Source: Saccharopolyspora erythraea NRRL 2338
GTDB taxonomy: Bacteria; Actinomycetota; Actinomycetes; Mycobacteriales; Pseudonocardiaceae
Reading direction: 5' to 3'
Assembly (NCBI RefSeq): GCF_000062885.1
Contig: NC_009142.1
Span: 3,895,584 to 3,959,583, forward strand
DNA: 64,000 nt
Notes under the pieces: generated by a model
Told to the model about the DNA's origin: nothing
Databases searched by the model: none
Seen by the model: the letters and a program-made list of their open reading frames with translations, nothing else
Shown here: positions 15,151 to 33,090 of the stretch, one piece after another
Layout of the letters: the number at the start of each line of letters is the position of its first letter
How positions within the stretch are numbered: the first letter of the stretch is position 1
Program-made: the position numbers and the translations under genes

Positions 15151-16914
15151 TCAGCGGGTGCGCGAAACGACCTGGTGGGTGCCGTCGGGCAGTCGCCTCG
15201 TGCGCCCGCGGCGGGCGAGGAACTCCAGCAGCACGACCGCGACCCGCCGGGTGGTGCCCAGCGCGCGGCGAGCCTGGCTGACGGTGAACGGCGCGGGCAG
15301 TTCGGACAGCAGGTCGACGGCGTGGTCGTCGGCACCCGGCAGCAGCACGATTCCCGGCGCGATCCGCAGCAGTTCGCCCGCGCGTTCGGCCGCGGCGAGC
15401 TCCTTCTCGCCCACGCCCAGCTCGGTGAGCTCGTCGGCTGTCGGCGCTTCGAACGGGCGGGCGGTGAGCTTGTCGCGGACGGTGGCCAGCGCCCGGCGCA
15501 GCGGCTCCGGCAGCGGGGCCGGGCCCAGCCGGAGCCGGCCGCCGTCCAGGGAGATACCGGAGGCCGCGGGTGCGGCCAGCACGACGGGCAGCAGGTCCGG
15601 GTCGGGAAGGTCGAGCGCGCGCCGGGCCATCTCGGCCGGGACGCCGTCCTCCAGCGGGTGCTCGCGCCGGTGGCGGTCGAGCAGGCCGGTCAGCTCGGCG
15701 GCCAGCTGGTCGCGGTGGGCGGGGTCGATCAGCCAGTCGCCTCCGGCGGGCGGGACGGCGCCCATCGCGCGCAGCTCGTCGGCGCGGACCACGCGGCGCC
15801 TGCGCAGCTCGGCCGCGCCGTCGGGGCGGCCGTCCATCGTGGCCAGCTCCAGCGCCCGCCGCTGCGCGGCTCCGCGCCGGTCGAGCGCGGGCGGCCGGAC
15901 GTCCAGGACGAGCGCGCCCGCGCGTGCCTGCCGCCCACCGGACTCGCGCAGGAGCGCGCGGTCGCCGATGCGCAGCGGCAGCGGCGCGCGCAGCGCGAGG
16001 CGCGCGGTGTCGACGTCGAGCGGGCGGACACGGACCGGCACCGAGGCCGAACCGATGTGCAGCGCTAGCTCGCGCGGCAGCTCCTTGGCGACCGATCCGC
16101 TCAGCCGGACGTCGACCAGATCGGTGTCCAGCCAGCGGCCGGGTGAGAGCAGCACGTCGCCCCGGCCGATGTCGTCGGCCTCCACGCCGCGCAGGTTCAC
16201 CGCCACGCGGGACACCGCGCGCGCCTCCTGCACCGGGGAGCCCAGCGCCTGCATGCCCCGGATCGCCACCCCACGTCCCGACGACCCGAGCCGCAGCCGC
16301 ATGCCGGTGCGCAGCGTGCCCGCGGCCAGCGTGGCGGTGACGACCGTGCCCGCGCCCCGGATCGTGAAAGCGCGGTCGACCCACAGCCGGACGTCGGCGT
16401 CGGGGTCAGGCGCGGGCAGGCGGTGCAGCAACTCGTCGAGCGCGCCGCGCAGGTCGTCGAGCCCCGCGCCGGTCGCGCCGCTGACCCGCACGACCGGGCT
16501 GTGCGCCAGCGAGCTCTGGTCCAGCCGGTCCCGCGCCTCGGCGATCGCCGGCTCCGGGTCGGCGAGGTCGCAGCGGGTCACCGCCAGCAGGCCGTGGCGC
16601 ACCCCGAGCGCGTCGAGGGCCTCGAGGTGCTCGGTCGACTGGGGCATCCAGCCCTCGTCGGCGGCCACGACGAACAGCACCGCGGGCACCGGCCCGATCC
16701 CGGCGAGCATGTTCGGCACGAAGCGGTGGTGCCCGGGCACGTCGACGAAGGCGACGGTGCAGCCGTCGGCCAGCGTGGTCCAGGCGAAGCCCAGGTCGAT
16801 GGTCAGACCGCGGCGCCGTTCCTCCGACCAGCGGTCGGGCTCCATCCCGGTCAGTGCCCTGACCAGGGTCGACTTGCCGTGGTCGACGTGTCCGGCGGTG
16901 GCGACGACGTGCAT
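15151..16914 (-). CDS. selB: Selenocysteine-specific elongation factor SelB
   Basis: A 587-residue translational GTPase that carries Sec-tRNA to UGA codons marked by a SECIS hairpin. The G domain shows MHVVATAGHVDHGKSTLV (P-loop), VAFVDVPGHHRFVPNML (G3) and VTRCD (G4). EF-Tu-like barrels follow to about residue 340, then C-terminal winged-helix domains that read the SECIS (the last one near LPAPFTVSQARRALGTTRRVAVVLLEFL). It starts with a TGATG overlap with selA, so the two are translated together. Matching tRNA and target gene are within 10 kb. Confidence 0.96.
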   Translation of the reverse strand: MHVVATAGHVDHGKSTLVRALTGMEPDRWSEERRRGLTIDLGFAWTTLADGCTVAFVDVPGHHRFVPNMLAGIGPVPAVLFVVAADEGWMPQSTEHLEALDALGVRHGLLAVTRCDLADPEPAIAEARDRLDQSSLAHSPVVRVSGATGAGLDDLRGALDELLHRLPAPDPDADVRLWVDRAFTIRGAGTVVTATLAAGTLRTGMRLRLGSSGRGVAIRGMQALGSPVQEARAVSRVAVNLRGVEADDIGRGDVLLSPGRWLDTDLVDVRLSGSVAKELPRELALHIGSASVPVRVRPLDVDTARLALRAPLPLRIGDRALLRESGGRQARAGALVLDVRPPALDRRGAAQRRALELATMDGRPDGAAELRRRRVVRADELRAMGAVPPAGGDWLIDPAHRDQLAAELTGLLDRHRREHPLEDGVPAEMARRALDLPDPDLLPVVLAAPAASGISLDGGRLRLGPAPLPEPLRRALATVRDKLTARPFEAPTADELTELGVGEKELAAAERAGELLRIAPGIVLLPGADDHAVDLLSELPAPFTVSQARRALGTTRRVAVVLLEFLARRGRTRRLPDGTHQVVSRTR

Positions 16915-18206
16915 CACAGCGCCGCCTCCCGCACCGCGCGGACGAGCACCTCGTCGTGTTCGGGGTCCAGGGCGGCCAGGTCGAGCAGGCAGTGGCCGCG
17001 TTCGAGCCGGGCCAGCACCGGCGGGTGCCCGGCGCGCAGCCGCTCGGCGAACAAGCGCGGTAGCCGCACCGCGGCGCTCGCCAGCTCCACGCCCGGCGCG
17101 CCACCCCCGCCCACGGTCGCCGACGAGTGCTGCACGTGGGCGTCGACGCCCGCCTCGTTGAGCGCCGCGGCGATCTTCTCCGCGCGGCCCAGCAGGCTCG
17201 CCCGGTCCCGGCGCAGCGCGTTCTCGACGGGCGTGTCGGGTCCGCGCAGCGTGGCCTCCAGCGCGGCGAGCGTGAGCTTGCCGACCCGCAGGGCGCGGGC
17301 GAGCGGGTGCCGGGCGAGCCTGCGCACGAGCTCGGCGCGGCCGAGGACGATGCCGGCCTGCGGCCCGCCCAGCAGCTTGTCGCCGCTGGCGATCACCAGG
17401 TCGGCGCCCGCGGCGAGCGTGGTCGCCGCGTCGGGTTCGCCGGGCAGCGCGGGGTGCGGTCGCAGCAGCCCGGAGCCGATGTCGACGACCAGCGGTACGT
17501 CCAGGCCGCTCAGCTCGGCCACCGGGACCGAGGAGGTGAAACCGCTGATCACGAAGTTGGACGGGTGGACTTTGAGGACGAACCCGGTCTCCGGTCCGAC
17601 GGCGTCGAGGTAGTCGGCGCGGTGGACCCGGTTGGTGGCGCCGACCTCGCGCAGCCGGGCGCCGGTGGAGGTGAGCAGTTCGGGGATGCGGAACCCGTCG
17701 CCGATCTCGACCAGTTCGCCGCGCGCCAGCACGATCTCCCGGTCCCGCGCCAGCGCGGTCGCCGCCAGGGCCAGGGCGGCGGCTCCGTTGTTGACCACGT
17801 GCGCGGCCTCGGCGCCCGGCACGGCCTCCAGCAGCGCCGCCAGAGCCGACTCGCCGCGCTTGCCGCGCGCGCCGGTCGTCAGGTCGAGCTCGACGTTCGT
17901 GGTGCCCGCGGCCTCGCGCACCGCGTCGATCGCCGCCTGCGACAGCGGTGCCCGGCCGAGGTTGGTGTGCAGCACGACGCCGGTCGCGTTGAGCACCGGC
18001 CGGATGCCCGAGGCCGACTCCGGCAGCGCCTCCAGCGTCGCGGCGAGCACCTGCTCGGGCTCGATCTCCCCGGCACGCGCTCTTCGCTGGGCGTCGTGCA
18101 CCGCCCGCTTGACCAGATCGCGGCCGAGGCGGGAGGCGGCCGCCGCCACCGGCGCGGCGCCGAGGACGTCGTCGGTGGCCGGTACGCGCCTGCGCGGGTC
18201 ACCCAT
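16914..18206 (-). CDS. selA: L-seryl-tRNA(Sec) selenium transferase SelA
   Basis: A 430-residue PLP enzyme that converts Ser-tRNA(Sec) to Sec-tRNA(Sec) with selenophosphate. The PLP lysine is Lys277 in VIASGDKLLGGPQAG. Other family motifs are VLNATGVVLHTNLGRAPL, LDLTTGARGKRGES and VHPSNFVISGFT. I placed the start at ATG 18206; the ORF runs on far upstream but across an AT-richer promoter region. A TATAGT -10 box (18214-18219) lies exactly 7 nt before the ATG, so the transcript is probably leaderless. Operon with selB. Confidence 0.96.
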   Translation of the reverse strand: MGDPRRRVPATDDVLGAAPVAAAASRLGRDLVKRAVHDAQRRARAGEIEPEQVLAATLEALPESASGIRPVLNATGVVLHTNLGRAPLSQAAIDAVREAAGTTNVELDLTTGARGKRGESALAALLEAVPGAEAAHVVNNGAAALALAATALARDREIVLARGELVEIGDGFRIPELLTSTGARLREVGATNRVHRADYLDAVGPETGFVLKVHPSNFVISGFTSSVPVAELSGLDVPLVVDIGSGLLRPHPALPGEPDAATTLAAGADLVIASGDKLLGGPQAGIVLGRAELVRRLARHPLARALRVGKLTLAALEATLRGPDTPVENALRRDRASLLGRAEKIAAALNEAGVDAHVQHSSATVGGGGAPGVELASAAVRLPRLFAERLRAGHPPVLARLERGHCLLDLAALDPEHDEVLVRAVREAAL

Positions 18207-18314
18207 GCGCCGCACTATATGTGCTCCGGCGGTAGCGGGCACGAAGATCAACGCCACATTGGACCAACGCATATTGTTACAACAGACATTGACAACGTTG
18301 GTACTGTCCCAGGC
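18207..18314. promoter_or_regulatory. Divergent promoters of selA and the M24 peptidase operon
   Basis: The relatively AT-rich 108-bp spacer holds TATAGT (minus, 18214-18219) for selA and TACTGT (plus, 18302-18307) for the peptidase gene, each 7 nt from its start codon. Between them, around 18266-18301, repeated CAACG/TTGT half-sites (TTGTTACAA, TTGACAACGTTG) could be a regulator site. Confidence 0.45.
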
Positions 18315-19151
18315 ATGTCCAGCAGCCCTGTTCCCGACCCGGCGCAGTACGCCCGGTTCCGGGAACTCCAGCAGCTCGCGTACTCGGCGGCCGAGGCCGT
18401 CGCGCGCGGACTCGAGCCCGGCGTCACCGAACGGGAGGCGGCCGCGCGGCTGCGGCACCACCTCGTGGAGCGCGGGGTGCAGGACTGGTTCCACACCCCG
18501 TTCGCCTGGTTCGGCGACCGCACCGCCTTCCGCGGGTTCAAGGTGCCGCTGCAGTTCTTCCCGACCCGCAGGCGGCTCGAGGAGGGCATGCCGTTCATCC
18601 TGGACTGCGCACCGGTGCGCGACGGCTACGTCGCCGACATCGGCTACTCGGGATGCCTCGGCGCCAACCGGATCCACGACAAGCTGATGGACGACCTCGC
18701 CGCCTACCGCGAGCTGATCGTCGAGCAGGTTCGGGCCGGGCGCAGGCTCAGCGACATCTACCGCGCCGTGGACGCGCTGATCAGCGAGCAGGGCTACGAC
18801 AACCGGCACCGGGTCTACCCGGGGCGGGTGATCGCCCACCAGGTCGGCATGGTCCGCTCCCGGCTGCCGAGGTTCGTCGCGGCGGGCTTCGGCGTCCGGG
18901 CGCTGCAGACGCTCGCGCAGGACCTCCTCGTCGAGCGCATGCACCACCGCTCACCGCTGTGGGCGGACGGCAGGATCTCCCGGCACCCGGCGACGCCGGG
19001 CATGTGGGCGGTCGAGCCGCACATCGGATTCCGCGGCGTGGGAGTCAAGTTCGAGGAGATCCTCGTGGTCGAGCAGGACGGTGACGCGTTCTGGCTCGAC
19101 GACGACCTCCCGCACGTGCGCCGCAGGCAGGACAGGAAGGTGACGCGATGA
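18315..19151 (+). CDS. M24 family metallopeptidase (Xaa-Pro peptidase-like)
   Basis: A 278-residue pita-bread protein. Metal ligands of the aminopeptidase P class appear in order: Asp in ILDCAPVRDG, Asp in YVADIGYSG, His in VIAHQVGM, Glu in AVEPHIGF and Glu in KFEEILVV. It is shorter than aminopeptidase P and lacks its N-terminal creatinase domain. It overlaps the next gene by 4 bp (ATGA) and heads a four-gene operon with an EphD-like fusion, a metal-dependent hydrolase and a ferredoxin reductase. Its substrate in that context is unclear. The likely promoter gives a leaderless transcript. Confidence 0.85.
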   Translation: MSSSPVPDPAQYARFRELQQLAYSAAEAVARGLEPGVTEREAAARLRHHLVERGVQDWFHTPFAWFGDRTAFRGFKVPLQFFPTRRRLEEGMPFILDCAPVRDGYVADIGYSGCLGANRIHDKLMDDLAAYRELIVEQVRAGRRLSDIYRAVDALISEQGYDNRHRVYPGRVIAHQVGMVRSRLPRFVAAGFGVRALQTLAQDLLVERMHHRSPLWADGRISRHPATPGMWAVEPHIGFRGVGVKFEEILVVEQDGDAFWLDDDLPHVRRRQDRKVTR

Positions 19152-24663: not shown

Positions 24664-24759
24664 TGGCGGAGGCGGACGGGAATCGAACCCGCCTGACCGA
24701 GATGCCCGGCCACGTCGGTTTTGAAGACCGCGGGGTCCACCAGGAGCCCTTACGCCTCC
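24664..24759 (-). tRNA. selC: tRNA-Sec (anticodon UCA)
   Basis: The minus strand reads GGAGGCGTAAGGGCTCC at the 5' end. The anticodon loop is CTTCAAA within CGGT/ACCG, with TCA pairing to plus-strand TGA at 24722-24724. A long variable arm (GGCCG...CGGTC), a T arm GCGGG-TTCGATT-CCCGT, acceptor CCGCCTCC, discriminator G and an encoded CCA complete the 96-nt gene. The long variable arm, UCA anticodon and extended acceptor/T stack are specific to bacterial tRNA-Sec. The eighth acceptor pair is a mismatch as I align it. A TATGCT -10-like box lies at 24767-24772. Confidence 0.95.
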
Positions 24760-25564: not shown

Positions 25565-26560
25565 ATGGACCTCGAAGCTGCGACCACGCACCGGCTCACG
25601 CAGTACGCGCACGGCGGCGGCTGCGCCTGCAAGATCCCGCCGGGCGAGCTCGAAGCCATGGTCTCGGGCCTGGCCGAGCCGCACCCGGAGCTGCTGGTCG
25701 GACTGGACGGCGGTGACGACGCCGCGGCCGTGCGTATCGGCGTGGACGGGGCCGTGCTGAGCACGGCGGACTTCTTCACCCCCGTCGTCGACGACGCCTA
25801 CGACTGGGGGCGGATCGCCGCGGCCAACGCGCTCTCCGACATCTACGCCATGGGAGGGCGTCCGGTCCTGGCGATCAACCTGCTCTGCTGGCCCAGGGAC
25901 GTGCTGCCGGTCGAGCTGGCGCGTGAGGTGCTGCGCGGCGGCGCCGACGTCGCCCGGGCGGCGGGCTGCCCGGTCGCGGGCGGGCACAGCGTCGACGACC
26001 CCGAACCCAAGTACGGCATGGCGGTGACCGGACTGTGCGATCCGGACGCGCTGCTGCGCAACGACGCCGGGCGCCCGGGGCTGCCGCTGTCGCTGACCAA
26101 GCCGCTGGGGATCGGTGTGCTCAACACGCGGCACAAGGCGACGGGTGAGGTCTTCCCGCAGGCGGTCGAGGCGATGACGACGCTCAACGCGAAGGCCGCC
26201 GCCGACGCGGTGGCGGCCGGGGTGCGCTGTGCGACCGACGTGACCGGCTTCGGGCTGCTCGGCCACCTGTTCAAGCTGGCCAGGGCCAGCGGGGTGTCGG
26301 CGGTGGTCGACGCCGCGGCCGTGCCGTACCTGCCCGGTGCGCGCGGGGCGCTGCGCGACGGCTACGTCAGCGGCGGCACCAAGCGCAACCTTGACTGGGT
26401 GCGCCCGCACACCGACCTGTCGGCGGTCGACGAGGACGAGGCGCTGCTGCTGGCCGACGCGCAGACCTCGGGAGGTCTGCTGGTCGCCGGTGAGGTCCCG
26501 GGTGCTCCGGTCGTCGGCGAGCTGGTGCCGCGCGGCGGGCACGTCGTCACGATTCGCTGA
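25565..26560 (+). CDS. selD: Selenide, water dikinase SelD
   Basis: A 331-residue enzyme making selenophosphate from selenide and ATP. The catalytic loop reads YAHGGGCACKIPPGEL, with Cys20 at the Sec/Cys position, Cys22 and the essential Lys23. Other motifs are VGLDGGDDAAAVRIG, STADFFTPVVDDAYDWGRIAA, ANALSDIYAMGG and CATDVTGFGLLGHL. It uses Cys, so it needs no UGA decoding itself. A TAGCGT box 6 nt before the ATG suggests a leaderless start. The formate dehydrogenase follows 100 bp downstream. Confidence 0.97.
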   Translation: MDLEAATTHRLTQYAHGGGCACKIPPGELEAMVSGLAEPHPELLVGLDGGDDAAAVRIGVDGAVLSTADFFTPVVDDAYDWGRIAAANALSDIYAMGGRPVLAINLLCWPRDVLPVELAREVLRGGADVARAAGCPVAGGHSVDDPEPKYGMAVTGLCDPDALLRNDAGRPGLPLSLTKPLGIGVLNTRHKATGEVFPQAVEAMTTLNAKAAADAVAAGVRCATDVTGFGLLGHLFKLARASGVSAVVDAAAVPYLPGARGALRDGYVSGGTKRNLDWVRPHTDLSAVDEDEALLLADAQTSGGLLVAGEVPGAPVVGELVPRGGHVVTIR

Positions 26561-26660
26561 GCGGCGCCCGACCTGCGATCACGGAATCCGTCCCCTCCTC
26601 GCGTTGCGAGCGGTGGGAGGTGGTGGTCTCCTGGAGATCAAGCGGTTCGAGGAGTGGTAC

Positions 26661-29600
26661 ATGGCCGAGTGGCTGCGGTGGCCGGTGATCCGCCAGCTGA
26701 CCGGGTCCGACCCGCTGGGTCGCGGCTCGGCGGCGCGGTCGCGGCGCACCGATGCCCTGCGTTCCCGGACCGAGGACGCCGACGGGGTCGTGCGCTCGGT
26801 CTGCCCGTACTGCGCGGTCGGCTGCGGCCAGCGCGTCTTCGTCCGCGACGGCGAAGTCACCCAGATCGAGGGTGATCCCGACTCGCCCATCAGCCGCGGC
26901 AGGCTCTGCCCGAAGGGCTCGGCGAGCCGCGAGCTGGTCACCTCGCCGTCCCGGCAGACCAGGGTGCGCTACCGCAGGCCGCACGGCACCGAGTGGGAGG
27001 ACCTCGACCTCGACACGGCGATGGACATGATCGCCGACCGGGTCCTTGCGACCCGCGACCAGACCTGGCAGGACACCGACGGCAACGGCAGGCGCCTGCG
27101 CCGCACGATGGGCATCGCGAGCCTCGGAGGAGCGACCCTCGACAACGAGGAGAACTACCTCATGAAGAAGCTCTACACCGCCCTGGGCGCGCTGCAGGTC
27201 GAGAACCAGGCCCGCATTTGACACTCCTCCACGGTTCCCGGTCTGGGGACCTCCTTCGGGCGCGGCGGCGCCACCACCTTCCAGCAGGACCTCGCCAACG
27301 CCGACTGCATCGTCATCCAGGGGTCCAACATGGCCGAGGCGCACCCGGTCGGCTTCCAGTGGGTGATGGAGGCCAAGCGGCGCGGCGCCAGGATCATCCA
27401 CGTGGACCCGAGGTTCACCCGGACCTCGGCCATGGCGCACCAGTTCGTGCCGCTGCGCGCGGGTAGCGACATCGCGTTCCTCGGCGCGCTGATCAACCAC
27501 GTGCTGACCAACGACGCCTACTTCCACGACTACGTCGTCGCCTACACCAACGCCGCGATGATCGTCTCGGAGGAGTTCGAGGACACCGAGGATCTCGACG
27601 GGGTGTTCTCCGGCTTCGACGCCGAGGCCGGCAGCTACGACATCCAGACCTGGCAGTACGAGGGCAGCGACGCGATGTCGGCGGTCGGCGGGCACGGGCC
27701 CGAGCGGGAGCCGTCGAAGAGCCACTCGCGGGAGCGGGAGGCCAGCCGCCCCGAGCGCACCGGATCGGGCGGGCCGGTCTACCACGGGCAGCCCGAGACG
27801 GACCCGACGTTGCGGCACCCGCGGTGCGTCTTCCAGATTCTCAAGCGCCACTACGCCCGCTACACGCCGGAGATGGTCGAGGAGGTCTGCGGGGTCCCGC
27901 GCGAGCAGTTCCTCGCGGTGGCCGAGACGATCGTGGCCAACTCCGGGCGCGAACGCACGACCGCCTTCGCCTACGCGGTCGGCTGGACCCACCACACGGT
28001 CGGGGTCCAGTACATCCGGGCGGCGTCGATCCTGCAGCTCCTGCTGGGCAACATCGGCAGGCCCGGCGGCGGCATCCTCGCGCTGCGCGGGCACGCCAGC
28101 ATCCAGGGCTCCACCGACATCCCGACGCTGTTCAACCTGCTGCCCGGCTACATCCCGATGCCGCACGCCCACACCGACACCGACCTGGACGCCTTCGTGG
28201 CCCAGGACGAGTACGCCAGCGGGTACTGGGGCAACATGCGCTCCTACATCGTCAGCCTGCTCAAGGCGTGGTGGGGCGAGCACGCCACGGAGGACAACGA
28301 CTTCTGCTTCGACCGGCTGCCGCGCCTGACCGGCGACCACGGCTCCTTCCAGACCGTGATCGACCAGATCGAGGGCAAGGTCAAGGGCTACTTCGTCATC
28401 GGCGAGAACCCCGCGGTGGGCACCGCCAACGCGCGCCAGCAGCGGCTGGGGCTGGCCAACCTGGACTGGCTCGTGGTGCGCGACCTGAACATGATCGAGA
28501 CCGCCACCTTCTGGAAGGACGGCCCGGAGATCGAGAACGGCGAGACGGCTCCGGAGGACATCGGCACCGAGGTGTTCTTCCTGCCCGCCGCCGCCCACAC
28601 CGAGAAGGACGGCACGTTCACCAACACCCAGCGGCTGCTGCAGTGGCACCACAAGGCGGTGGAGCCCAAGGAGGATCAGCGCAGCGACCTGTGGTTCTAC
28701 TACCACCTCGGCCGCAAGCTCCGCGAGAAGCTGCGCACCGCCGAACGCACCACCGAGCTGCGCGAACGCGACCGGGCGCTGCTGGAGCTGACCTGGGACT
28801 ACCCGACCGAGGGCGAGCTCGACGAGCCGAGCGCGGCGGCGGTGCTGCGCGAGATCAACGGCTTCGGCCCGGACGGGTCGCTGTCCAGCTACACCCAGCT
28901 GCGCAGCGACGGATCCACCCGCTGCGGGTGCTGGATCTACTGCGGTGTCTTCGCCGACGGCGTCAACCAGTCCGCGCGGCGCAAGCCGGGCCGCGAGCAG
29001 AGCCCGGTCGCACCGGAGTGGGGCTGGGCCTGGCCGGCCAACCGGCGGATCATCTACAACCGCGCCTCGGCCGACCCCGCAGGCAGGCCCTGGAGCGAGC
29101 GCAAGGCCTACGTCTGGTGGGACGAGGCGCGCGGCGAGTGGACCGGCCACGACGTGCCGGACTTCGACAAGGGCAAGCGCCCGGACTACGTGCCGCCCGA
29201 AGGCGCCGTCGGACCCGACGGCATCTCCGGCACGGACCCGTTCATCATGCAGAGCGACGGCCGCGGGTGGCTCTACGTGCCCGCCGGACTCGTCGACGGC
29301 CCGCTGCCCGCGCACTACGAGCCGCAGGAGTCGCCGCTGTCCAACCGGCTGCACACCCACCAGCAGCGCAACCCGGCGCGCCAGGTGTACTCGCGGCCGG
29401 AGAACCGCTACCAGCCCAGCGGCGACGAACCGGGCGCGGAGGTCTACCCGTACGTGTTCACCACCTTCCGGCTCACCGAGCACCACACCGCGGGCGGGAT
29501 GAGCCGCTGGCTGGCGCACCTGTCGGAGCTGGCGCCGGCGATGTTCCTGGAGGTCTCCCCGGAGCTGGCCGCCGAACGCGGCCTGGAGCACCTGGGCTGG

Positions 29601-29960
29601 GCGACGGTCGTCACCGCGCGCAGCGCCATCGAGGGCCGCGTGCTGGTGACCCCGCGGATGCGTCCGCTGCGCCTCGGGGGCCGCACGATCCACCAGATCG
29701 GGATCCCGTGGCACTGGGGGTCCAACGGCCTGACCACCGGCGACGCGGCCAACGAGCTGATCAACGTGGCGCTGGACCCCAACGTGCACATCATGGAGAC
29801 CAAGGCGGGCACCTGCGACATCCGTCCCGGCCGGCGACCGCGGGGCCCGGAGCTGGCCAGGTTCGTCGAGGACTACCGCAGGCGGGCGGGCATCACCGAG
29901 CTCACCGGCACCGAGTACTCCGACGACCCGCGGCGCACCGGCGAAGGACGAGGGGAGTGA
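26661..29960 (+). CDS. Selenocysteine-containing formate dehydrogenase, alpha subunit
   Basis: A 1,099-residue molybdopterin oxidoreductase read through an in-frame TGA at 27219-27221 as Sec187 (NQARI-U-HSSTVPGLGTSFGRGGAT). Both sides of the TGA are clearly one protein: the first part has the 4Fe-4S motif VCPYCAVGCGQ...GRLCPKGSAS and the rest the MoCo domains (GNIGRPGGGILALRGHASIQG, VVRDLNMIETATFW). It oxidises formate to CO2. The ATG at 26661 follows GAGGAG at 6 nt. Unlike E. coli FdnG there is no twin-arginine signal. It overlaps the beta gene by GTGA. If the TGA were read as stop it would look like two truncated ORFs. Confidence 0.95.
27219..27251 (+). promoter_or_regulatory. UGA(Sec) codon and bacterial SECIS hairpin
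   Basis: Eleven nucleotides after the TGA, GGTTCCC (27233-27239) pairs with GGGGACC (27245-27251) around the loop GGTCT. The outer bases and GGUCU loop resemble the E. coli fdhF SECIS upper stem, and the spacing from UGA fits SelB recognition. The hairpin lies within coding sequence. Confidence 0.9.
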
Positions 29961-30868
29961 CGGCAGTGACCGACAACCGGCTCAGCGGGCCGCTGGCCGA
30001 CCCCGCGGGCGATGCGGGCTACCCGGCCGACCACCCGGAACGGGTCGGGTTCTTCACCGACACCAGCGTCTGCATCGGGTGCAAGGCGTGCGAGGTCGCC
30101 TGCAAGCAGTGGAACCTGCTGCCCGAGGACGGCGTGGAGCTGACCGGCATGTCCTACGACAACACCGGTGCGCTGGGCGCGAGCACGTGGCGCCACGTCG
30201 CGTTCATCGAGCAGCACGTGGACTCCGAGGCCGCGGCTGCCGCGGCCCCGGAGTCGGTGGACCTCGGGATGCCGGGCATGGGCCCCTCGGGCGGCGACGG
30301 GTCGGTGCGCTGGCTGATGTCGTCGGACGTGTGCAAGCACTGCACCCACGCCGCGTGCCTGGACGTCTGCCCCACCGGCGCTCTCTTCCGCACCGAGTAC
30401 GGAACCGTCGTCGTCCAGGACGACGTGTGCAACGGCTGCGGGTACTGCGTGCCCGCCTGCCCCTACGGCGTGATCGACATCCGGCCCGGCGACGGCGGCG
30501 CGTTCAAGTGCACGATGTGCTACGACCGGCAGGGCGCCAGGCTGGCACCGGCGTGCGCGACGGCTTGCCCGACCGAGTCGATCCAGTACGGCCCGCTGGA
30601 GGAGCTGCGGGAGCGCGCCGCGGCCAGGGTGGACGAGCTGCACGCCCAGGGCGTGACCGAAGCCAGGCTCTACGGGCACGAGCCCGACGACGGCGTCGGC
30701 GGTGACGGCGCGTTCTTCCTGCTGCTCGACGAGCCCGAGGTCTACGGGCTGCCGCCGGACCCGGTGGTCACCACGCGGGACCTGCCGTCGATGTGGCGGT
30801 GCGCGGCGGCAGCGGCGGCCACCGGCGCCGCGCTCGTCGCGGGCTGCTTCCTGGGGAGGAAGAAGTGA
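29957..30868 (+). CDS. Formate dehydrogenase beta subunit (4 x 4Fe-4S)
   Basis: A 303-residue electron-transfer subunit. Sixteen cysteines in four clusters are visible: CIGCKACEVAC, CKHCTHAACLDVC, CNGCGYCVPAC and CTMC with CATAC. The C-terminus ends in a hydrophobic helix (WRCAAAAAATGAALVAGCFLG) and RKK, which would tether it to the membrane as in FdnH. The GTG at 29957 overlaps the alpha stop; another GTG three codons later is possible. It passes electrons from the alpha subunit to the NrfD-like protein encoded next, whose start also overlaps (GTGA). Confidence 0.94.
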   Translation: MTAVTDNRLSGPLADPAGDAGYPADHPERVGFFTDTSVCIGCKACEVACKQWNLLPEDGVELTGMSYDNTGALGASTWRHVAFIEQHVDSEAAAAAAPESVDLGMPGMGPSGGDGSVRWLMSSDVCKHCTHAACLDVCPTGALFRTEYGTVVVQDDVCNGCGYCVPACPYGVIDIRPGDGGAFKCTMCYDRQGARLAPACATACPTESIQYGPLEELRERAAARVDELHAQGVTEARLYGHEPDDGVGGDGAFFLLLDEPEVYGLPPDPVVTTRDLPSMWRCAAAAAATGAALVAGCFLGRKK

Positions 30869-31785
30869 CCGAAGTGGACACCGGCACCGACTTCCGCTCG
30901 TACTACGGCAAACCGGTGCTCAAGGAGCCGGTGTGGAAGGTCCCCGACGTCCCGGCCTACCTCTACATGGGCGGTCTGGCGGGCTCGTCGTCGACGATGG
31001 CGCTGCTGGCGGATCTCACCGGTAGGCCGGAGCTGGCGCGCAACGGCCGCATCGCCGCGGCCGCGGGCGCCGCGGCGAGCGTGGTCGCGCTGGTGCACGA
31101 CCTGGGCCGGCCGACCCGCTTCCTCAACATGCTGCGCGTTTTCAAGCCGACCTCGCCGCTGAGCGTCGGTTCGTGGATCCTGGCGCCGTTCTCCGCGCTG
31201 GCCGGCGCCGCCGCGGCGAGCGACCTCACCGGGTACCTGCCGGCGCTGGGGCGGCTGAGCGCCGGGGCGGCGGGCGTCATCGCCCCGGCGATGACCACCT
31301 ACACCGCGGTGCTGCTGGCCGACACGGCGGTGCCCGCCTGGCACGAGATGTACCGGGAGCTGCCGTTCGTCTTCGCGGGCAGCGCGGTGGCGAGCGCGGG
31401 CGGCATGGGGATGATCACCACGCCGGTGGCCCAGGCCGGGCCCGCCCGCCGGATGGCGGTGGCGGGTTCGGCGCTGGAGCTGGCCGCCACCGAGCGGATC
31501 CACCGGCGCGAGGGGATCGTCGGGGAGGTCTACGAGAAGGGGCGTGCGGGCAAGGTGCTGCGGATGGCCAAGGCCCTGACCGTGGCGGGTGCGGCCACGG
31601 CGCTGTTCGCCGGCCGCAGCAGGACGCTCGCGGTCGCCTCCGGGCTGTGCCTGACGGCCGCGGGCGTGGCCACCCGCTACGGCATCTTCGACGCCGGCCG
31701 GGTCTCGGCCCGGGATCCCCGCTACACCATCGTCCCGCAGCGCGAGCGCAAAAGCGCCGAGGAACGCCTCGGGGTGAGCAGCTAG
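30865..31785 (+). CDS. nrfD: NrfD/PsrC-type membrane subunit of formate dehydrogenase
   Basis: A 306-residue polytopic membrane protein. It begins FRSYYGKPVLKEPVWKVPDVPAYLYMGGLAGSSS, followed by about eight hydrophobic helices (AAAAGAAASVVALVHDLGR, SVGSWILAPFSALAGAAAA, AGVIAPAMTTYTAVLLADT, PFVFAGSAVASAGGM). NrfD proteins pass electrons to menaquinone without heme, replacing the cytochrome b gamma subunit of FdnI. The start overlaps the beta stop, with GGGGAGGAAG upstream. Third and last gene of the operon. Confidence 0.9.
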   Translation: MTEVDTGTDFRSYYGKPVLKEPVWKVPDVPAYLYMGGLAGSSSTMALLADLTGRPELARNGRIAAAAGAAASVVALVHDLGRPTRFLNMLRVFKPTSPLSVGSWILAPFSALAGAAAASDLTGYLPALGRLSAGAAGVIAPAMTTYTAVLLADTAVPAWHEMYRELPFVFAGSAVASAGGMGMITTPVAQAGPARRMAVAGSALELAATERIHRREGIVGEVYEKGRAGKVLRMAKALTVAGAATALFAGRSRTLAVASGLCLTAAGVATRYGIFDAGRVSARDPRYTIVPQRERKSAEERLGVSS

Positions 31786-31881: not shown

Positions 31882-33090
31882 CTACTTCAGGTCCTTGGAG
31901 GACTTGCCGAGCAGCCTGCGCGCGATCACCAGCTGCTGGATCTGCTGCGTTCCCTCGAAGATGTCCAGGATCTTGGCGTCCCGGCTCCACTTCTCCAGCA
32001 GGCTGTTCTCGGAGTAGCCCAGCGTGCCGCACAGCTCGACGCAGCGCAGCGTCACGTCGGTGCCGGTGCGTCCCGCCTTGGCCTTGGCCATCGACGCCTG
32101 CAGCGAGTTCGGCCTGCCGTTGTCGGCCATCCACGCCGCCTGCAACGTCAGCAGGTATCCCGCCTCCCAGTCCGCCTCCAGCTCCAGGAAGGTCGCCGCG
32201 GCCGAGGACTGCCGGTGCGGCGGGCGGTCGTAGTCGGGGGCCAGACCTGCCTCGGTGAGCTTTTCCCGCGTCTCGTCCAGCGCCGCCCTGGCCACGCCGA
32301 CGGCCATCGCCGCGACAAGCGGCCGGGTGTTGTCGAAGGTCTGCATGACCCCGGCGAAGCCCTGCTCGGTGTTGATCTCCGGACTGCCGAGCAGGTTCTC
32401 CTTCGGGACCCGCACGTCGTCGAGCCGGAACTCGGCGGTGTCGGACGCGCGGATGCCGAGCTTGTGCTCCAGCCGGACCAGCTCGAATCCCGGCGTGCCC
32501 TTCTCCACGACGAACGACTTGATCGCGCCACGGCCCTTCGAGCGGTCCAGCGTCGCCCACACCACGACGGCGTCGGCGCGCTCGCCGGAGGTCACGAAGA
32601 TCTTCTGCCCGTTGAGCACGTACTCGTCGCCGTCGAGCCGGGCGGTGGTGCGGATTGCCGCGGAGTCCGAACCGCAGTCGGGCTCGGTGATGGCCATCGC
32701 CGCCCACTTGCCCGCGAAGCGCTCGAGCTGCTCGTCGTCGGCGACCGAGGCGATCGCCGCGTTGCCCAGCCCCTGCCTGGGCAGCGACAGCAGCAGCCCC
32801 ACATCGCCCCAGCACAGCTCGATCGTGCCGAGCGCGGTGGACATGTTGCCGCCGTTGCGGACCCCGTCGCCCTTGTCCGAGGCGCGCCGGACACCGCCGG
32901 CGCCGGAGGCGCCGCCCTGCCCGGAGGAATTGAGCCCGTCGAGCACCGCCGCGAGCATGTCCAGCTCGTGCGGATAGCTGTGCTCGGCGTGGTCGTACTT
33001 GCGCGAGTTGGGCCGGAATACCTCGGCCGCCGACTGCCGCGCCTGGTTCACCAGCGCGGCGAACTTCTTCGGCACTTCCAGGTTGATCAA
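31882..33090 (-). CDS. Acyl-CoA dehydrogenase, FadE23-like
   Basis: A 402-residue flavoenzyme starting MINLEVPKKFAALVNQARQ and containing RPNSRKYDHAEHSYPHELD, a pattern I associate with mycobacterial FadE23. FAD/substrate motifs are MAITEPDCGSDSAAIRTTA and FVTSGERADAVVVW. The C-terminal catalytic loop is ILDIFEGTQQIQQLVIARRLLG, with the Glu base. It is paired with the next upstream ACAD gene on the same strand, suggesting a heteromeric enzyme. The N-terminal region has a Gly/Ser-rich insertion (GLNSSGQGGASGAGG) near residue 55. Confidence 0.88.
   Translation of the reverse strand: MINLEVPKKFAALVNQARQSAAEVFRPNSRKYDHAEHSYPHELDMLAAVLDGLNSSGQGGASGAGGVRRASDKGDGVRNGGNMSTALGTIELCWGDVGLLLSLPRQGLGNAAIASVADDEQLERFAGKWAAMAITEPDCGSDSAAIRTTARLDGDEYVLNGQKIFVTSGERADAVVVWATLDRSKGRGAIKSFVVEKGTPGFELVRLEHKLGIRASDTAEFRLDDVRVPKENLLGSPEINTEQGFAGVMQTFDNTRPLVAAMAVGVARAALDETREKLTEAGLAPDYDRPPHRQSSAAATFLELEADWEAGYLLTLQAAWMADNGRPNSLQASMAKAKAGRTGTDVTLRCVELCGTLGYSENSLLEKWSRDAKILDIFEGTQQIQQLVIARRLLGKSSKDLK

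Follow-up and report, generated by a model that had tools for sequence, protein, structure and literature searches.

Selenocysteine (Sec)-containing formate dehydrogenases (FDHs) accompanied by sel genes are in print for actinomycetes. One is reported from Streptomyces incarnatus (PMC4498112). Another, FDH1 of Actinomycetospora chiangmaiensis DSM 45062, is described in PMC7176365 as a membrane-bound Sec-FDH with an FdhA of 1078 aa; formate was built up in this organism without selenite and hardly with selenite. In Geodermatophilaceae, Sec is encoded by UAG and accompanied by a CUA tRNA-Sec, according to PMC5330540. The finding presented here is correct and, as such actinomycete enzymes are already described (PMC4498112, PMC7176365), ordinary in kind. 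No paper describing the FDH of Saccharopolyspora erythraea as a selenoprotein was found, judging by passages, titles and abstracts.

The locus lies in a 64,000-nucleotide stretch of S. erythraea NRRL 2338, hereafter the window, which comprises bases 3895584-3959583 of a genome consisting of one contig of 8,212,805 bases. It contains the following features.

15151-16917, minus strand: selB, selenocysteine-specific elongation factor (271 bits, cut-off 242)
16914-18191, minus strand: selA, selenocysteine synthase (419.5 bits, cut-off 267.9; 5' limit from the profile match)
24664-24759, minus strand: selC, tRNA-Sec with anticodon UCA (tRNA search)
25565-26560, plus strand: selD, selenide water dikinase (388 bits, cut-off 125)
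26661-29960, plus strand: fdhA, predicted Sec-containing FDH alpha of 1099 residues (NF041513 match, Pfam, Desulfovibrio-type alignments)
27216-27218, plus strand: ATT codon preceding the TGA; this codon ends in A/U in 204 of 211 recoded genes (gene comparison)
27219-27221, plus strand: in-frame TGA, codon 187, probably read as Sec at the catalytic Sec/Cys position (translation, structure-chain alignments)
27233-27251, plus strand: putative SECIS hairpin of 7 bp, 27233-27239 with 27245-27251, loop GGUCU 27240-27244 (Rfam match, covariation)
29966-30868, plus strand: FDH beta, 4Fe-4S ferredoxin type (end from the ORF list, GTG start inferred)
30865-31785, plus strand: FDH gamma, NrfD-type membrane protein (start inferred; PF03916 42.5 bits, cut-off 25.8)

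Like the window, A. chiangmaiensis FDH1 groups its beta and gamma subunits with SelA/SelB in one cluster. The two are likened by description, and A. chiangmaiensis differs in genus, in having SelD outside the cluster, and in possessing two further Sec-FDHs (PMC7176365). The Geodermatophilaceae share the FDH family and the hairpin with the window, where, however, the codon is UGA and the tRNA-Sec has the anticodon UCA.

The fdhA gene most probably encodes a complete FDH alpha in which UGA 27219 is decoded as Sec at residue 187 via the hairpin and SelB, a reading that rests on sequence comparison and to which we assign a probability of about 0.97. Because the family match, the catalytic position, the hairpin covariation and the sel genes agree, the locus appears to encode a membrane-type FDH whose Sec is decoded in the usual bacterial way. 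The same four lines of evidence support the first-pass annotation of the window, which had proposed that the alpha subunit is a selenoprotein.

The fdhA frame was read directly from the sequence. It runs on the plus strand from ATG 26661, which is preceded by a ribosome-site-like GAGGAG, to the stop TGA 29958-29960, and spans 1099 residues. Codon 187 is the in-frame TGA 27219-27221, after which the frame stays open up to the terminal stop at 29958-29960. Translation reproduces the residue order reported earlier for this site, NQARI-U-HSSTVPGLGTSFGRG. The frames on either side of the TGA had been proposed to form one FDH, and the joined frame indeed scores 1983 bits against NCBIfam NF041513 (formate_DH_Act; cut-off 1400) over residues 5-1075. 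The match is near full-length, and nothing was found that distinguishes the window protein from this family. TIGR01553 (FDH-N alpha) is also above cut-off, as are PF04879, PF00384, and PF01568, which together denote a molybdopterin oxidoreductase with a 4Fe-4S N-terminal domain. Contigs named Saccharopolyspora, among the best 80 of 561 stretches, show 81-86% identity to the window FdhA. The best match of the beta subunit is TIGR01582 (153.9 bits, below the cut-off of 334.7), and NCBIfam profiles gave no match to the gamma subunit. An acyl-CoA dehydrogenase-like gene is located just past the FDH operon, at window positions 31882-33090 on the minus strand.

Codon 187 aligns with the X or C of the Desulfovibrio-type FdhA chains 8cm4, 6sdr, and 9qm0, inside the RI-x-HS motif, in agreement with the earlier placement of the UGA at the catalytic Sec/Cys position. 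The chains are homologous to the window FdhA over residues 45-334 and 375-1056 and bear Sec or Cys at the same place; the window protein contains ~40 additional residues between 334 and 375. The periplasmic Desulfovibrio-type enzymes bear a Tat signal. In contrast, the Tat signal on the alpha subunit that defines the periplasmic FDH-N type is not seen in the window: no Tat-like motif is visible by eye at the N terminus of its FdhA. A simple motif search, run with no positive control, likewise found such a motif in none of the 128 relatives whose upstream sequence was long enough (window excluded). The lack of a Tat-like motif, together with the NrfD-type gamma subunit, suggests that the FDH is membrane-bound with its active site on the cytoplasmic side.

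The four genes that define the Sec-decoding trait, selA, selB, selC, and selD, are all directly observed in the window, where the first-pass annotation had mentioned none of them. The selA gene lies inside a longer open frame, 16914-18947, on the minus strand. The UGSC selenoprotein family PF24696 gave no match in the S. erythraea genome, in a search whose controls were silent too.

The comparison covers 211 recoded FDH genes drawn from three sets, a class draw (window included), a named set, and a phylum draw; because species may recur between these sets, the 211 genes cannot be taken as independent. The class draw contains 394 genomes, 107 of which have NF041513 above cut-off. From it, 110 places were fetched (L009-L038 and L041-L120). 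One of them, L045, is the window and was dropped, and the motif failed to catch two, L069 (ATT-TGA, loop GGTCT) and L070, so that 107 remain, or 108 with the window. Partial matches, such as those in G074, G079, and G150, lie outside the fetched loci. The named set consists of the best 80 of 561 confirmed stretches, with 68 TGA, 9 TAG, and 3 Cys codons. The phylum draw adds 48 further recoded genes, a subset of those listed for it. Eleven loci that repeat class-draw genes (L203-L207, L211, L212, L216, L219, L223, and L226) were removed. All trees are quick FastTree trees built on short stretches.

The 108 class-draw codons comprise 85 TGA, 22 Cys, and 1 TAG, and the NF041513 matches above cut-off thus include both recoded and Cys genes. 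In total, 201 TGA and 10 TAG genes (window included) carry a stop codon at the Sec site. This count bears on whether fdhA is a decaying gene cut short by the TGA, the usual meaning of a stop inside a conserved frame. A mechanical ORF list does break fdhA into 26337-27221 and 27330-29960, much as the first-pass annotation had predicted of automatic annotation in general; annotation by curated families need not split the gene, because NF041513 spans nearly the whole protein. However, the fdhA frame is otherwise intact over its full length at the family score given above, the stop recurs at the same place throughout the recoded genes, and sel genes lie nearby, which together make a pseudogene scarcely credible. 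With the TGA read as Sec, the gene model for S. erythraea is settled as a single 1099-residue enzyme and not two fragments. A second Sec site in FDH genes with two TGAs was also considered and rejected: in the 20 genes read from this family, the next stop lies 847-868 codons past the Sec codon and is the ordinary end.

Recoded FDH and tRNA-Sec tend to occur together. A strong tRNA-Sec, defined as a listed match of at least 64 bits, is found in 84 of 88 genomes with recoded FDH versus 2 of 20 with Cys FDH only, as counted on hand-compiled genome lists in which G079 was entered as recoded from the listing. The 64-bit limit was chosen because many genomes have matches of ~50 bits, which were taken for serine tRNAs. 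The four recoded-FDH genomes without a strong tRNA-Sec are all multi-contig drafts. Seventeen class-draw genomes (G005, G015, G043, G108, G140, G151, G158, G183, G206, G275, G285, G307, G313, G315, G354, G369, and G377) have a strong tRNA-Sec and no recoded FDH; they may contain other selenoproteins, or an FDH that was missed or unassembled.

The class-draw TAG gene belongs to genome G390 (L090, L121), whose tRNA-Sec has the anticodon CUA. Nine more TAG genes, among the best 80 of 561 stretches, are on contigs named Blastococcus, Modestobacter, and Geodermatophilus (L154, L164, L167, L174, L177, L180, L183, L184, and L191). The TAG genes fit the UAG-encoded Sec of Geodermatophilaceae described in PMC5330540.

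The hairpin begins 11 nt past the TGA and reads GGUUCCC-GGUCU-GGGGACC. The 7-bp stem and GGTCT loop that the first-pass annotation had placed there hold at their exact coordinates, and covariation supports them. Bacterial SECIS elements are stem-loops lying a short way past the UGA, whose apical loop has a G among its first positions. The window hairpin has these features, with a G early in the loop and a stem kept by pairing, and it is a SECIS element on comparative grounds and a putative SelB target. The Rfam family SECIS_3 (RF01989) matches the same spot, at 27216-27274, with an E-value of 3.4e-4 and 31 bits, below its gathering score of 63. The window hairpin differs from SECIS_3 in pairing the U, located ahead of the upper stem, that is unpaired in that family. 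In the 211 recoded genes this U faces A in 164, G in 43, and U in 4. An earlier description of the element as an E. coli-like stem shifted to GC pairs with the loop kept is thus right as to its SECIS-like character but leaves out this additional pair. A search of the S. erythraea genome with model R1, in which scoring covered 150 of the 11224 first-look candidates, returned this hairpin as the sole match at E<=1.

Folding energy was discarded as support for the hairpin. The 48-nt stretch folds at -13.7 kcal/mol with a z of +1.40, less stable than most shuffles, and 188 of 200 are at least as stable. The hairpin is revealed by comparison between genomes, since energy alone would not show it. 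Across 70 distinct class-draw sequences, 94.9% of the 490 cells are paired, both partners have changed in 36 cells, and covariation scores 0.242. None of 500 shuffles attains any one of these three values, and each of the six slides falls below every one of them. Two other measures are less distinctive: pairs in which both partners have changed number 2, which is unremarkable (reached by 223 of 500 shuffles and equalled by slides +1 and +3), and further pair types number 7, which is not strongly unusual (36 of 500 shuffles). Four of the seven pairs are invariant in these 70 sequences.

The most informative pair is formed by columns 18 and 30, both third codon positions (Val192 and Gly196). It is the top mutual-information pair, with 1.09 bits on 165 distinct rows against 0.33 for the runner-up, and it has changed at least 44 times on the quick tree. 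The 211 recoded genes contain C-G in 86, U-A in 67, G-C in 27, U-G in 19, G-U in 10, and the unpaired G-G in 2. The two columns are paired in 209 of 211 recoded genes versus 9 of 25 Cys genes, a contrast that counts once because the Cys genes form a single clade with one Sec/Cys change on the tree. In addition, the apical pair 21-27, also at third codon positions, has G-C in place of C-G in 11 of 211 recoded genes. The outermost pair, 15-33, is weak and forms in 133 of 211. The loop is GGUCU in 170, AGUCU in 29, and AGUUU in 12 of the recoded genes, and GGGCU, GGCCU, GGUCU, or GGACU in the 25 Cys genes. Compared with one another, the recoded genes show clearly what the actinobacterial SECIS looks like.

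These data also bear on ordinary suppression, by which the TGA would be read as, for example, Trp or Cys and the hairpin would be irrelevant. Sec at this site is indeed deduced from sequence, and the weak folding energy is compatible with an irrelevant hairpin. But at synonymous sites the hairpin pairs show covariation in recoded genes that the Cys genes lack, recoded FDH co-occurs with tRNA-Sec, and the TAG site of G390 is accompanied by a CUA tRNA-Sec. Ordinary suppression is accordingly considered highly improbable.

Under Sec decoding, one mRNA from 26661 would encode the complete FDH alpha. At UGA 27219, where a ribosome normally stops, the hairpin 11 nt downstream would hold SelB-GTP with Sec-tRNA-Sec (UCA), which SelA would make from selenophosphate supplied by SelD. 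Sec would go in at residue 187 and ligate the Mo/W of the bis-MGD cofactor, and electrons from formate would pass via the beta Fe-S subunit and the NrfD-type gamma subunit to the quinone pool. We infer SelB binding, Sec insertion, metal ligation, and the electron path from established knowledge.

The base immediately 5' of the recoded codon is also strongly biased, and this is the only point of the analysis that may be new. A or U occupies it in 204 of the 211 recoded genes, including 41 of the 48 from the phylum draw. The seven exceptions, six AUC and one AUG, all come from phylum-draw genomes outside the class. In the 85 class-draw TGA genes, codon 186 is AUU in 55, AUA in 27, and GUU in 3, and never AUC, GUC, or GUG. 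The 25 Cys genes, which are one clade, all have C or G before the codon. A description of the base before a bacterial Sec codon was not found in the open-access literature, searched mostly by title and abstract and including PMC4513850.

We tentatively propose, at somewhat below even odds, that actinobacterial Sec decoding uses an upstream element in which A or U is kept at the position directly 5' of the recoded codon, UGA or UAG. With C or G at this position, pairing to the GC-rich mRNA would hide the codon beside a SECIS lacking the bulged U in its upper stem. The predicted mean unpaired probability of the recoded codon, calculated on 211 stretches of 90 nt, is 0.655 and 0.716 with U and A before it, versus 0.489 and 0.527 with C and G. 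Because of this difference, A or U may keep the recoded codon open. No specific pairing partner emerged for the base and the idea of one was dropped; all downstream columns have at most 0.11 bits, and the strongest link, of 0.33 bits, is to the last base of codon 185.

Alternatively, the base may be A or U merely through common descent or codon choice, without function, an explanation we rate as appreciable but clearly short of even odds. The sequences are related, and residue 186 itself differs, being mostly Ile in Sec forms and Val in the single clade of Cys forms. The exceptions outside the class point the same way. In E. coli fdhF, GUC precedes the UGA, so the upstream-base rule is no general law, and the SECIS_3 consensus likewise begins GUC-UGA. 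However, AUC accounts for 1242 of 1293 (96%) other Ile codons in the class-draw frames and 0 of 82 at codon 186, and the quick tree requires no fewer than 31 changes of the base among recoded rows, or 26 with U/A rows only. If the upstream-base proposal is true, GC-rich genomes pay with otherwise rare Ile/Val codons (AUU, AUA, GUU) at one site; if the base is functional, Sec insertion in actinomycetes would follow a rule that is simple and can be tested.

A group of more remote FDHs that score below the family cut-off (L262-L269) was excluded from the 211 genes. L262-L265 have ATA-TGA and no GGUCU-type loop, so their SECIS must differ. L266 has ATC-TGT, and L267-L269 were left unscored by the script, with a TGA visible in context. 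Finally, L256 (G522) contains an extra in-frame TAG 59 codons past its Sec TGA within a long FDH match, which may reflect decay, an assembly error, or another cause.
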